Source: Bacteroidales bacterium (GTDB lineage: Bacteria; Bacteroidota; Bacteroidia; Bacteroidales; WCHB1-69). Taken from it: 64,000 bases of DNA. Shown in pieces: positions 13,518-58,055 of this stretch (positions are counted from its first letter, which is position 1; every line of letters begins with the position of its first letter). The DNA is taken from contig JAFYNM010000029.1 in the NCBI GenBank assembly GCA_017549765.1, positions 219,720-283,719 of the forward strand, read 5' to 3'. The notes beneath the pieces were generated by a model. It saw nothing but the letters and a program-made list of their open reading frames with translations. It was not told the DNA's origin and ran no database searches. The position numbers were made by a program, and so were the translations under genes.

Positions 13518-13529
13518 TTTGCAACGCTA

Positions 13530-13640
13530 TCACACCCCCGTCCGTATCTTCGTCCTATCTTCTCCCTCGACCTTTCCCGCGCCGGCCTTCTTGTAGGCAT
13601 TGAAGTTGTAGCTCACGCCTAACCAGAACTTCCATCCAAC
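13530..13640 (-). pseudogene. Broken copy of a TonB-type receptor C-terminus
   Basis: The minus strand encodes the last ~32 residues of a beta-barrel receptor (FWLGVSYNFNAYKKAGAG then KVEGEDRTKIRTGV and stop). Bases 13532-13633 match 14242-14343, the end of the intact receptor gene 710 bp away, with about seven differences; the last 32 amino acids are identical, so the differences there are silent. Upstream of residue -33 the similarity stops abruptly at a palindromic repeat. It is therefore the remnant of a second, slightly diverged receptor copy, probably lost by recombination or by arrival of the repeat. Confidence 0.85.
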
Positions 13641-13645
13641 GGCCT

Positions 13646-13750
13646 CGTGCCAGAGGCACGATATCCTAATAACCCCATACAAGCGGAACGAAGTGAAGCG
13701 CAGTGTGGGGTAGCAGGTGCGATGCGCGAACATGCGTGTCGAAGACACGC
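13646..13750. repeat. REP-like palindromic element, copy 1
   Basis: Within the 491-bp gene-free stretch 13518-14008. It consists of a hairpin CGTGCC-AGA-GGCACG (13646-13660), a large imperfect palindrome bounded by CCCCATAC (13673-13680) and GTGTGGGG (13703-13710), and a hairpin GCGTGTC-GAA-GACACGC (13734-13750). Three-base loops recur in every hairpin. In reverse complement, its TATGGGGTTATTAGGAT plus hairpin aligns with copy 2. Confidence 0.8.
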
Positions 13751-13767
13751 TACTTAACAGTAATAGT

Positions 13768-13873
13768 TGCGTATCTCCGACACGCAGCCTACCACACGCG
13801 CACGTTCACCCCACACGGCACTCACTTCGTTCGTTTCGTGTGGGGTTACTAAGATGGCGTGCATCCTGCACGC
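13768..13873. repeat. REP-like palindromic element, copy 2
   Basis: An imperfect inverted repeat TGCGT...ACGCA near 13768 is followed by a palindrome bounded by CCCCACAC (13809-13816) and GTGTGGGG (13838-13845), then GGTTACTAAGATG and a perfect hairpin GCGTGCA-TCC-TGCACGC (13857-13873). It is arranged head-to-head with copy 1. The rest of the gap up to the 13974 promoter shows nothing I can identify. Confidence 0.8.
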
Positions 13874-14203: not shown

Positions 14204-14239
14204 CCATGTAAAACTTGTTGAATTCAATTACAAAAAACA

Positions 14240-16606
14240 TTACACCCCCGTCCGTATCTTCGTCCTATCTTCTCCCTCGACCTTTCCCGCACCAGCCTTT
14301 TTGTAGGCGTTGAAATTGTAGCTCACGCCCAACCAGAACATCCGGCTCTTGCCGTGCAACATATTGTCTAACCGATAGTACTGGTTGTCGGCGAAGATCT
14401 CCCATTTGCGGGTGTTGAAGACGTCCGTGAGCTGCGCGGAGACCGTGAACGCCCCCTTTAGGAACTTCTGGCTGATGCCGATGTTCATGTAGTGCGAGAG
14501 GCGCGTGGTGAACTGCGGGTAATACTGAGGCGTGTTCTGGAAATACTGCAGGTGGATATTCATTCCCTTGATCGGGCGGAAATCGAGGCGGAGGTTGCTG
14601 TTGTTGACCCAGCCGCTATTGGAAATGTCCCACTCACCGATATTGCCCACCGAACGGAGATAGTAGGTGTTCGTACCGAGCGTCGCCGACATCCATTTCC
14701 ACGGGTCGGCCTTGACGCTGAAATCCAACCCAGCCTTGGTCTGCGAGGTGGCGTTGATGTAGGTCATCAGCAGGATGTCGTCCTCAAAACGGGCCACCTG
14801 CGTGATGTAGTGGTGGATATAGTTGCCGTAAACGCCCACATTCACAGCCCATTTCGGCACCTTGAACTGGTAGAGCAGTTCCGCATTGTCGGCGGTTTCG
14901 GGCTGGAGGTGCATGTTGCCCTGCTCGAAGTTGTGCGGGTCGATCATGCTCATGTAGGGATTGAGCTGCGGGTACGTGGGCCGCGTGATGCGCCGCGAAT
15001 AGGCAAACGACAGGCTGTGTTTCTTGGAAATCTTGTACTTTAACGACAGCGACGGTCCGAGGAAGAAATGCTGCGTCCACTCGTCCAGCACCTCCTTCTC
15101 GCTATGCAGGTGCGTGCGACTGTATTCGGCACGGAGACCGGCACTCCAAGTGAAATGGTCGCGCCATTCCGTAGAGGTGAACTGTACGTATGCGGCAGGC
15201 ACGTACTCCCTGTGCAACAGGTCGTTGCTAAACTGATGGGAGTAGTCCCAACCGAGACTGTCACAAGTGTAGAAGTTGTGGTAGATGTTGTTTTGGCGGT
15301 AGGAGAACTTCACACCCGCATCCCAGAAGCCGTATTTCTTGATAATGCGCCAGTCCGTCTGCGCAGAGGTGAGCAGCGGACTTCCGCCCGACACCGACTT
15401 GCTGACCGAATCGCCCTCCAAGAAGTAGTACGACGGACGGTGGCCCCAAATCTTGGAGACATTCGCCTTGACGGAGAAGGTGAGCTTCCCGGGACGGATG
15501 GCGTGCCAATAGGCGAACGTCCCGTCGAGGTTCTCGCGGTTCCAGGTCACGTCGCTGCGATGGTTCTCGTGCGACAGGATGCCGTTGTGGTACCAATCGT
15601 TGGAGAGATCCTGCACGGTGTTGAGGCGGGGCAGGATGAGCCGGAAGTCAGCATCAATCTTGTTCCGCATATCGGGCTTGATGGTGAATCCAAGGGCGAT
15701 GTTGTTGTTGAAGACCGTCCGCAGAGCATGGATCTGCTGGCTGAGGCTATCGCCGATGGTGCGGTAGTAGCGGTATAGGTAGCCATTGTTGAGGTCGTCC
15801 TCGTATTTCACCTGGTAGTTGAAGCGCAGGGCGAACTTGTTGCGGATATAGTTCAGCGCGAGGCTGCCGTTGGTGAAGTGGTTGAAGCCGTAGTTGACCG
15901 CCGCCATCCCGCTGAGTCCCTTCTGCCGACCTTTTTTGGTGACGATGTTAATGATGCCGCCGGTGCCCTCCGCATCATAGCTGGCATTCGGGCTCGTGAT
16001 AATGTCAATGCTAGCCACATTGGAGGACGGTATCGCGTTGATGGAACCAAGGTTCGTGGGCACCCCGTCGAGGAGCAGCAGCACATTGCCGTTGCCGCGG
16101 ATGGAGACATTGCCGTCGGGGTCAACGGTCACGGAAGACTGCTGGCGCAGCACGTCGCCAATGGAACCGCCCATCCAACCCGTCGGGTCCGTATAAGTGA
16201 TTGTAGTATGCGTGGCAGTTGTAATCGGACCGCTCTGTTCACCCAGTGCGACATTCACCTCATCCAGCATTAGCGACGCGGCCTCCATCAGGATATTTCC
16301 CAGCGAGAGTTCTCCCTTGTCGGCCGTAAAATCAAGATGTTTCGTCTTATACCCCATCCATACGACCGTCAGCGTGTAGGTTTTCGGTGATTGCGGCACT
16401 TTCAGTGTAAACTGGCCCTTCTGGTCCGTCAACGTGCCCGCCACCACGCTGTCCTGTAGCGAGGCATACACGGAGACATATTCCATGGGGTTGTTATCTC
16501 CCTTGACCACCTTGCCTGAGACACTGCAAACACGCTGCTGGGCAAAAAGGGAGATGCTGGAAACCAGCAGGACAATGGCGAGGAACAGGTGGCGTTTTGG
16601 CATCAT
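14240..16606 (-). CDS. TonB-dependent receptor-like outer-membrane beta-barrel protein
   Basis: This 788-residue protein has a signal peptide (FLAIVLLVSSISLFAQ), a carboxypeptidase-regulatory-like beta-sandwich (about 25-110: CSVSGKVVKGDNNPMEYVSV), a plug domain (about 130-225, with SIRGNGNVLLLLDGVPT and YDAEGTGGIINIVTKKG) and a long beta-barrel of the OMP_b-brl_3 type ending in a Tyr/Phe-rich strand (WLGVSYNFNAYKKAG). It would import or bind a ligand at the outer membrane. No SusD partner is present, so it is not a typical polysaccharide system; peptides, metals or siderophores are possible. The second Met codon pair at 16606/16603 is used. A C-terminal fragment of a paralogue lies 0.6 kb downstream. 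Confidence 0.92.
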   Translation of the reverse strand: MMPKRHLFLAIVLLVSSISLFAQQRVCSVSGKVVKGDNNPMEYVSVYASLQDSVVAGTLTDQKGQFTLKVPQSPKTYTLTVVWMGYKTKHLDFTADKGELSLGNILMEAASLMLDEVNVALGEQSGPITTATHTTITYTDPTGWMGGSIGDVLRQQSSVTVDPDGNVSIRGNGNVLLLLDGVPTNLGSINAIPSSNVASIDIITSPNASYDAEGTGGIINIVTKKGRQKGLSGMAAVNYGFNHFTNGSLALNYIRNKFALRFNYQVKYEDDLNNGYLYRYYRTIGDSLSQQIHALRTVFNNNIALGFTIKPDMRNKIDADFRLILPRLNTVQDLSNDWYHNGILSHENHRSDVTWNRENLDGTFAYWHAIRPGKLTFSVKANVSKIWGHRPSYYFLEGDSVSKSVSGGSPLLTSAQTDWRIIKKYGFWDAGVKFSYRQNNIYHNFYTCDSLGWDYSHQFSNDLLHREYVPAAYVQFTSTEWRDHFTWSAGLRAEYSRTHLHSEKEVLDEWTQHFFLGPSLSLKYKISKKHSLSFAYSRRITRPTYPQLNPYMSMIDPHNFEQGNMHLQPETADNAELLYQFKVPKWAVNVGVYGNYIHHYITQVARFEDDILLMTYINATSQTKAGLDFSVKADPWKWMSATLGTNTYYLRSVGNIGEWDISNSGWVNNSNLRLDFRPIKGMNIHLQYFQNTPQYYPQFTTRLSHYMNIGISQKFLKGAFTVSAQLTDVFNTRKWEIFADNQYYRLDNMLHGKSRMFWLGVSYNFNAYKKAGAGKVEGEDRTKIRTGV

Positions 16607-50940: not shown

Positions 50941-51022
50941 CCCCACACTTGCTCCTTCCAGTCGCTTGTGTGGGGTTAATTGCACTTCGTGCGTGTTGCC
51001 TCTTCGAGGCTGTTTAAGGAAT
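50941..51022. repeat. REP-like palindromic element, copy 3
   Basis: 82-nt element in the gap 50916-51028: arms CCCCACAC (50941-50948) and GTGTGGGG (50968-50975), the linker TTAATT, hairpins GCAC-TTC-GTGC (50982-50992) and GCCTC-TTC-GAGGC (50998-51010), then TGTTTAAGGAAT. It matches the copy at 57599-57673 throughout except for 7 extra bases inside the palindrome loop. Confidence 0.88.
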
Positions 51023-57003: not shown

Positions 57004-57705
57004 CTATCCTAATTTTAGATTGTTAAAGGTGATGGTCGTCACGTCCCCGTTCGCCTCATTCATCTCCACTTTCGTCACAGCGTTATGTTTTTCGTTGAAA
57101 TAGAGATAGATATTGGCAAACATCTTCTTGAGTTTCGGCTGGTTGGGGGTGAGTTTGGCCACCCATTGGTTGCCTTGGGTGTACATCTCGACAGAGAAGT
57201 CTCCATTGTCGGAGAGGGCCGTGCCCGTGACGCTACCCATCACGATCTGCGCGATGCCCTTGAAGAGCTGCCCGCTCTGTCCGTCCGCCTTCCTGGTCTT
57301 GCCATCCTGCTGGATATAGACCTGTTGCTGCCCATTCTCTTCCTTCACAATGAGGGCAAACTTATTGGGCTCGGTGTATTCCCACTGGAGATTTTTGCCC
57401 GAGAAGGACATCTTGCCTTTGGAGGTCTGCTTCTCTTTGAGCATGGTGGACTGCCGCGCCTGCGTGAAGTCGCACTGGATACTCTTCACGGTGGCAGTGG
57501 CCTTGTTGACTGCCTCCACCATCTTCTTGGACTGCTCGGGAGTCGCCTTCTTCAGCGTCTGCGCAGATGCCGAGGTGACGAGCAATAGCATCATCACACC
57601 CCACACTGCGCTTCGCTTATGTGGGGTTAATTGCACTTCGCGCGTATTGCCTCTTCGAGGCTGCTTAAGGAATGTATTCTTCATTTTAAATACAGAATTC
57701 ATCAT
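57004..57705 (-). CDS. LolA-like outer-membrane lipoprotein carrier with repeat-derived signal peptide
   Basis: This 233-residue protein has a LolA fold pattern: ATVKSIQCDFTQARQSTMLK, KGKMSFSGKNLQWEYTEPN, QVYIQQDGKTRKADGQ and NAVTKVEMNEANGDVTTITF. It would carry a lipid-linked cargo, here perhaps the pigment, across the periplasm. The likely start (ATG 57705) overlaps the SMR-like stop by ATGA. The N-terminal part is odd: the 75-nt repeat 57599-57673 lies in frame between MMNSVFKMKNTF and MMLLLVTSASAQ, giving a long basic n-region (KQPRRGNTREVQLTPHKRSA) before a short hydrophobic core. The mature protein seems intact. Confidence 0.88.
   Translation of the reverse strand: MMNSVFKMKNTFLKQPRRGNTREVQLTPHKRSAVWGVMMLLLVTSASAQTLKKATPEQSKKMVEAVNKATATVKSIQCDFTQARQSTMLKEKQTSKGKMSFSGKNLQWEYTEPNKFALIVKEENGQQQVYIQQDGKTRKADGQSGQLFKGIAQIVMGSVTGTALSDNGDFSVEMYTQGNQWVAKLTPNQPKLKKMFANIYLYFNEKHNAVTKVEMNEANGDVTTITFNNLKLG
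57599..57673. repeat. REP-like palindromic element, copy 4, inside the lolA-like gene
   Basis: 75-nt element with arms CCCCACAC (57599-57606) and ATGTGGGG (57619-57626), hairpins GCAC-TTC-GCGC (57633-57643) and GCCTC-TTC-GAGGC (57649-57661), then TGCTTAAGGAAT. Same order and sequence as the copy at 50941. Its length is a multiple of three, so it leaves the reading frame open and encodes 25 residues of the signal peptide region. Confidence 0.88.
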
Positions 57706-58055
57706 TTCGCAATAAAATAGCACCCCGCCATGATCAGCAGCACGCCCAGCCAGCGGACGGCCGGCACCGACTCGTGAAAGACCAGCACCGCGGCGATCAT
57801 CCCGAAGACATAACTCATCGAGATGAGCGGATAGGCCATGGAGAAGGGGTGATTTTTCAAAATATAAAACCAAAGAACTGCTGCTCCGCCATACATGACC
57901 CCACAACCAAGCCACCACCAATTCGTAAGCTGCGAGCCGAAAAAGGACCATTTCCACGCAAACGGGCCCATCTTTTGGAGGGCCAACTTCAAAAACACCT
58001 GCCCGGAGCAAAGCAAGACAGATTGTATGATTGCCAAAAAGATTAGTCTTATCAT
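57702..58055 (-). CDS. SMR/EmrE-like small multidrug-type transporter
   Basis: A 117-residue protein with four membrane helices, in the size range of SMR transporters: FLAIIQSVLLCSGQVFLKLAL (helix 1), WWLGCGVMYGGAAVLWFYIL, SMAYPLISMSYVFGMIAAVLVF and VPAVRWLGVLLIMAGCYFIAK. The Pro in helix 3 and the Ser/Tyr after it fit the family, but the SMR Glu of helix 1 is replaced (a Gln is near), so it may not be a proton-coupled exporter. It overlaps the CLF-like gene upstream by 4 nt and the LolA-like gene downstream by 4 nt. Confidence 0.82.
   Translation of the reverse strand: MIRLIFLAIIQSVLLCSGQVFLKLALQKMGPFAWKWSFFGSQLTNWWWLGCGVMYGGAAVLWFYILKNHPFSMAYPLISMSYVFGMIAAVLVFHESVPAVRWLGVLLIMAGCYFIAK

Follow-up and report, generated by a model that had tools for sequence, protein, structure and literature searches.

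A leader repeat of Bacteroidales with relatives beside Y1 transposase genes, probably absorbed repeatedly as the basic n-region of signal peptides

Several kinds of bacterial repeat are known to enter coding sequences. Among the REP/RAYT systems, the account in PMC6006769 includes in-frame REP insertions inside the tnpA_REP genes of subclass 2.4 (Cyanobacteria and Bacteroidetes), as well as some Bacteroidetes subclasses with atypical structures that lack GT[AG]G. The passages of PMC3733652 on REP location place these repeats mostly downstream of ORFs, with others within ORFs and at NH2 ends, many of the latter being possibly extragenic. One Yersinia signal peptide partly made by a MITE (YPAL/RU-2, in YPO1552) figures in sections of PMC2759123 and PMC2229807, and sections of the latter also describe Rickettsia palindromic elements (RPEs), which lie in frame, with translation demonstrated in at least one of the cases tested. 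Portions of PMC5896051 belong to the same literature.

The locus considered here lies in a window of 64,000 nucleotides, the whole stretch of DNA that was analysed, from a Bacteroidales bacterium. Its relevant features are:

57004-57684, minus strand: lolA-like gene, 226 aa counted from MKNTF, with a LolA domain
57705 and 57702, minus strand: in-frame upstream ATGs (ATGATG) that overlap the EamA-like gene's stop codon
57702-58055, minus strand: EamA-like gene upstream of lolA, its stop codon overlapping ATGATG
57599-57672, minus strand: REP-like element of 74 nt with three hairpins, found as a profile match
57591-57606, minus strand: possible downstream starts, GTG at 57606 (VWG, in hairpin 1) and ATG ATG at 57594/57591
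50941-51021, minus strand: second copy of the element (L004), its ends read from the sequence

The product of the lolA-like gene contains a LolA domain (PF03548, E 9.6e-13, 48.6 bits against a cut-off of 23.6), and the neighbours are, by domain, FabA-like, glycosyltransferase, MMPL/acyltransferase and ketosynthase-like genes, a neighbourhood that we take to be typical of aryl-polyene or flexirubin clusters. The first-pass annotation had placed a repeat in frame inside this coding sequence, and the match at 57599-57672, obtained with a profile seeded with this lolA copy itself, bears that out. The element reads as FLKQPRRGNTREVQLTPHKRSAVWG, in frame between MKNT and VMMLLLVTSASAQ, the reading after it continuing as VMMLLLVTSASAQTLKK, and the gene stays open throughout, as had been stated. 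Of the residues MKNTF previously assigned to the host gene, MKNT stands and the F is the element's own. On the minus strand hairpin 3 is 5', hairpin 2 in the middle and hairpin 1 3'; a search of 57400-57900 against Rfam returned no match up to E 5.

A start at 57705 or 57702 would give the lolA-like protein the N-terminus M(M)NSVFKMKNTF. From either upstream ATG the signal peptide comprises 41-47 residues with a net charge of +6 or +7, and its uncharged stretch, SAVWGVMMLLLVTSASA, is followed by a cleavage site between ASA and Q (all by simple count). The features of a type I Sec signal, namely a basic n-region, an uncharged h-region and an A-x-A site, are all present. The element had been proposed to supply part of the n-region; this fits its basic stretch but not its terminal SAVWG, which falls in the uncharged stretch. 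Starts at GTG 57606 or at the MM (57594/57591) would leave a signal peptide without any basic residue. Twin-arginine signals have the form S-R-R-x-F-L-K, and such a signal was rejected here, the RR of QPRRG lying far from the hydrophobic core and lacking this form.

A search of its own genome gives 16 matches to the element up to E 10, and 11 of these fall below 1e-5, so that the match is not due to chance. At E <= 0.001 the element is matched in 33 of 60 relatives; all 33 are among the 36 genomes of its genus, a count that includes the own genome, as against none of the 24 from the order's remaining families. Among named records, those nearest that have a relative of the gene come from uncultured Bacteroidales (MAGs), and several take their names from rumen or other ruminant stomach samples. 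Within the window, the copy at 50941-51021 is 92% identical to the lolA copy over 65 nt and is untranslated, lying 25 nt ahead of the start of a 265-aa gene that begins MKKILIMALTIWVVVGMKAQ; as the leader of a secreted-looking gene it offers a direct contrast to the lolA copy. Elsewhere the window contains a 105-nt direct repeat (13529-13633 and 14239-14343, 92% identical), between whose units lie two CCCCACA..TGTGGGG hairpins resembling hairpin 1 (about 13670-13711 and 13809-13846).

The minus-strand RNA of the element is predicted to fold into three hairpins (-27.8 kcal/mol, z -3.64), with 1 of 200 shuffles folding equally well. Across 90 different 74-nt copies, standard pairs account for 1779 of the 1800 stem cells, and two-sided pair changes are seen in all three hairpins, e.g. 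G-C 53/A-T 34 in hairpin 2, T-A 78/C-G 12 in hairpin 3 and C-G 76/T-A 10 in hairpin 1. G.U pairs on the sense strand occupy 30 cells, as against 11 with A.C, which would be G.U on the other strand only (p 0.004, to be taken as a guide, the copies being related).

Y1 transposase genes were found in 9 of the 10 genomes tested. Thirteen RAYT loci were examined among the 22 matches listed, and at five of these relatives of the element lie within 500 nt, in three cases on both sides. The five fall without exception in a single subgroup of six loci (54-97% identical), whereas the seven loci outside it are all unflanked (p 0.005, for a subgroup drawn post hoc). These flanking relatives are weaker, scoring 19-43 bits, and the 5' box is missing from them (at least the first 10 model positions). 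Inspection of the 74-nt consensus by eye revealed no GT[AG]G tetranucleotide at the hairpin feet. The element is a short palindromic repeat with many, mostly intergenic copies (149 of 155 near-full copies lie outside called genes); since it has RAYT-flanking relatives but no GT[AG]G foot, we call it REP-like rather than a canonical REP. The element of this genus is probably mobile, and its relatives beside these genes suggest RAYT as the putative mobilising enzyme.

To describe its genomic placement we scanned 100 stretches of 14 genomes (1.72 Mb) with the profile, the stretches having been picked around matches ranked by similarity to the lolA copy, together with a few others of the same contigs, and genes having been called by a simple in-house caller. 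The scan gave 181 hits, of which 26 were dropped as too short, leaving 155 of near full length. Copies between co-directional genes number 137, with 129 in sense and 8 in antisense orientation (p 3e-29); of the remainder, 7 lie between divergent and 2 between convergent genes, 6 within a called gene and 3 beside the end of a stretch. The survey offers 625 co-directional, 135 divergent and 89 convergent spaces of at least 60 nt. The start codon lies a median of 39 nt downstream of the element. Most copies are untranslated 5' leaders in sense orientation.

The FLEQ frame (frame 0) is open through the element in 140 of the 155 copies, and in 39 of these 140 it runs into an ORF of at least 80 codons. 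The excess of open frames is by itself small (36 versus 26 and 16 in the shifted frames); being too weak alone, it was complemented by tests based on upstream ATGs and on orthologs. In 22 of the 39 long-ORF copies an in-frame ATG occurs upstream, ahead of any stop, as against 13 of the 101 others (p 4e-7), and the ATG is there in all 10 copies that are followed by a hydrophobic core and have no internal ATG that would leave a basic residue. The excess of hydrophobic N-termini is modest (15/22 versus 42/112, p 0.01), and that of synonymous changes in translated copies weak (39/87 versus 117/350, p 0.06).

Ortholog clusters include six families in which every member is translated, with 10 cross-species pairs: an APH/RapZ-C family (cytosolic), two lipoprotein families without a Pfam match, a CCP_MauG lipoprotein, an alpha-L-fucosidase and a TolC-type OEP. 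Three pairs are discordant, all from one ABC-transporter cluster in which the element is in frame in one species only. This family is a false positive of the translation criterion, as are L122 and L170, which have a usable internal start. Among untranslated ortholog pairs 18 of 44 share a frame, close to one third. The element lies in the ORF in 7 of 30 examined orthologs of the cytochrome-c-peroxidase lipoprotein (CCP; matched in 37 of 40 genomes; seven were left out, the own genome among them) and in 9 of 26 of the TolC family.

Taken together, the lolA, CCP and TolC families have 28 sense matches, of which 24 are in-frame parts of the ORF with an ATG upstream; the remaining four, 5' half elements spanning model positions 1-33 to 1-37, lie outside the ORF. 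The 24 include partial elements in the G002 peroxidase and the G006 TolC gene, and one copy with an additional weak, overlapping antisense match. The distance from the element to the mature protein takes 16 distinct values among the 24, all multiples of three, in counts whose orthologs are not independent of one another. In the lolA genes of G010 and G021 and the TolC genes of G009 and G021 the nearest ATG lies 29 codons upstream, inside another shared leader. This leader, MNKIDE..RST.., is found ahead of the element in both lolA (L022, L025) and TolC (L256, L260). The two genes are unrelated, which suggests a composite repeat of leader and element.

Two further lipoprotein loci may be mentioned. 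A second in-frame copy of the own genome lies in a lipoprotein gene (L005, 989-1594) that reads MKENIFLEQPRRGKTHEVQLTPHK..ITACDPGY (MKENIFLEQPRRGKTHEV...ITACDPGY), the protein resembling lipoproteins in L208 and L173. The peroxidase lipoprotein of L223 (G020) has five SAVWG units in a row in its signal region, as if the hairpin arm had grown by in-frame tandem copies.

More than half of the element, in the frame of the gene and behind an upstream ATG, is present in 8 of 21 lolA orthologs, the carriers of the element or of a diverged form being G000, G011, G031, G007, G012, G021, G009 and G010. The comparison with element-free relatives that had been proposed at the outset shows short, ordinary signal peptides (e.g. 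MNMTMNMRKLTILLMLIALWFGGSAQ in G062), and the lolA orthologs compared do not all share an extension dissimilar to the repeat, an outcome that had been named as contrary to an insertion. The lolA gene of G063 reads MFVKISNILK followed directly by MFFLLLFVTSASAQ, where G012 has MFVKSPNILK, then FFFKQSRRDKCSKSSVTPHKRRRSAMWVGV, then VMLLLFVTTGSAQ; judged from this alignment G063 looks like an empty site, and could also represent a deletion of the element. When presence of the element is placed on a tree of the mature proteins (21 rows), at least five changes are needed, and the sister species G010/G014, G031/G062 and G007/G003 differ in it. A single clean insertion with vertical inheritance is unsupported in view of this number of changes; these and the differing sister pairs point to a lolA 5' end that was often lost, regained or exchanged, exchange between species being our guess. 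The earlier description of an apparent insertion thus holds for a dispersed repeat within signal-peptide coding sequence, but not for a one-off or clearly new event, as eight lolA orthologs and several other families have the element. Several element-free species (L089, L026-L029) have a different hairpin leader ahead of lolA, e.g. GGGCTGAAAGCCC..TTAGCCTGGGGTGAGCGTAGCGAGCCCTAGGA in G062.

We consider it likely that a RAYT-associated leader repeat has repeatedly been absorbed as the long basic n-region of signal peptides, a reading that draws on features visible in the sequences themselves: the repeat family, its sense orientation, hairpin covariation and RAYT linkage, the element-free relatives, the conserved frame and the upstream ATG. 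The main competitor would be an element that is only a 5' leader, with lolA starting inside or after it (GTG 57606 or ATG ATG 57594/57591) and the open upstream frame arising by chance. Such an arrangement would agree with most copies, in which the element is an untranslated leader and the gene begins downstream of it; the consensus frame is open by itself in the great majority of copies, and for this open-frame reason a passage of PMC3733652 cautions that an extragenic position is possible for many of the REPs at NH2 ends. The constant frame from element end to mature protein fits a start at a GTG or ATG in hairpin 1 equally well, so that it is the upstream ATG and the open frame, not the length test, that disfavour the hairpin 1 GTG. 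All 24 in-ORF copies of the three families have the upstream in-frame ATG before a stop, as against the 13 of 101 frame-0-open copies without a long ORF. The downstream starts would moreover yield signal peptides devoid of basic residues, lengthened elements (77 and 80 nt) remain in frame, and 76-nt elements keep the frame by reading hairpin 1 in another stop-free frame. We therefore regard a downstream start, which the first-pass annotation had raised as an alternative, as unlikely, and lolA as probably translated from an upstream ATG.

Within the preferred reading, the chances are about even that the translated extension is neutral, n-regions simply tolerating long basic additions. The sister species that lack the element would agree with neutrality, as would the in-frame protein inserts of Rickettsia, called neutral or slightly harmful in a section of PMC2229807; hints of use come instead from persistence in eight lolA species and from the basic KR that most of these keep ahead of the core, although the kept charge may just reflect the need for any n-region. 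As the first-pass annotation suggested, the long basic n-region may alter export, or the element may act as a regulatory hairpin; the hairpins themselves do fold and covary. It is also conceivable, though improbable, that the sense bias stems from a preference for one replication strand during insertion and not from a function as RNA. Genes often point the same way as replication. IS200/IS605 relatives favour the lagging-strand template (also noted in part of PMC6006769). However, the strand of the element follows that of the flanking genes (69+60 agreeing, 4+4 opposed), and both orientations occur in 17 of 37 multi-copy stretches of at most 20 kb each, which makes a pure replication-strand cause unlikely; as the sole cause it was rejected on the latter count.

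Under absorption of the leader repeat into signal peptides, the usual site of the element would be a transcribed leader just ahead of a gene, in sense orientation and folded into three RNA hairpins. One of its sense-strand frames, FLEQPRRGKTHEVQLTPHKRSAVWG, has no stop, and where a copy comes to lie in that frame between a start codon and the hydrophobic core of an exported protein, it would be read through by the ribosome. The element would then provide a long basic n-region and the first residues of the h-region to a signal peptide of the Sec or lipoprotein type. The site of cleavage would stay as it is, and the element-bearing LolA-like protein is predicted to be exported normally and cut between ASA and Q as in its relatives. 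The lolA arrangement, common to eight species, is old, its frame kept while lengths and hairpins changed. More speculatively, a sense-oriented, self-spreading leader RNA might carry in its open frame a portable basic n-region that was domesticated many times in signal peptides and lipoprotein signals, growth of the SAVWG arm and swapping of 5' ends making it a fast-evolving, exchangeable module selected for export or expression; we hold this wider version only tentatively.

If lolA is translated through the element, peptides from FLKQPRRGNTREVQLTPHK are expected. The system would amount to a repeated natural experiment, complete with element-free relatives, in which selfish repeats turn into coding sequence, and it would mark the signal-peptide n-region as a place where added length is tolerated and positive charge rewarded. 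It also becomes testable whether untranslated copies work as leader elements through the same RNA hairpins. Automatic start-codon calls around the element will err both ways in these genomes.

The open-access full texts searched yielded no paper in which a Bacteroidales repeat acts as a signal-peptide n-region. Like the REPs of REP/RAYT (TnpA_REP) systems and REPtrons, as these are characterised in the sources cited, the element is short, palindromic, multi-copy and intergenic, with relatives beside Y1 tyrosine transposase genes. Unlike them it packs three hairpins into 74 nt, has no GT[AG]G foot visible in its consensus and is used in frame in several families of exported proteins, and its strong sense orientation in leaders differs from the mostly downstream position reported in the relevant part of PMC3733652. 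The Yersinia YPAL/RU-2 case, in the accounts cited, concerns one main locus, YPO1552, coding for a putative exported protein whose hydrophobic part is supplied by the repeat; the present element occurs in several families, including lolA and the TolC-type proteins, supplies mainly the basic n-region, and has element-free orthologs. With the Rickettsia RPEs it shares the placement of a palindromic repeat in frame in protein genes. The RPEs differ in being 105-146 bp long and in occupying various parts of mostly cytosolic proteins, and the sections of PMC2229807 that describe them make no mention of a RAYT link. Measured against these sources, mobile repeats placed in frame are already known, as is one signal peptide derived from a MITE; use as an n-region, proposed here for one Bacteroidales genus, would be a new form of this kind.
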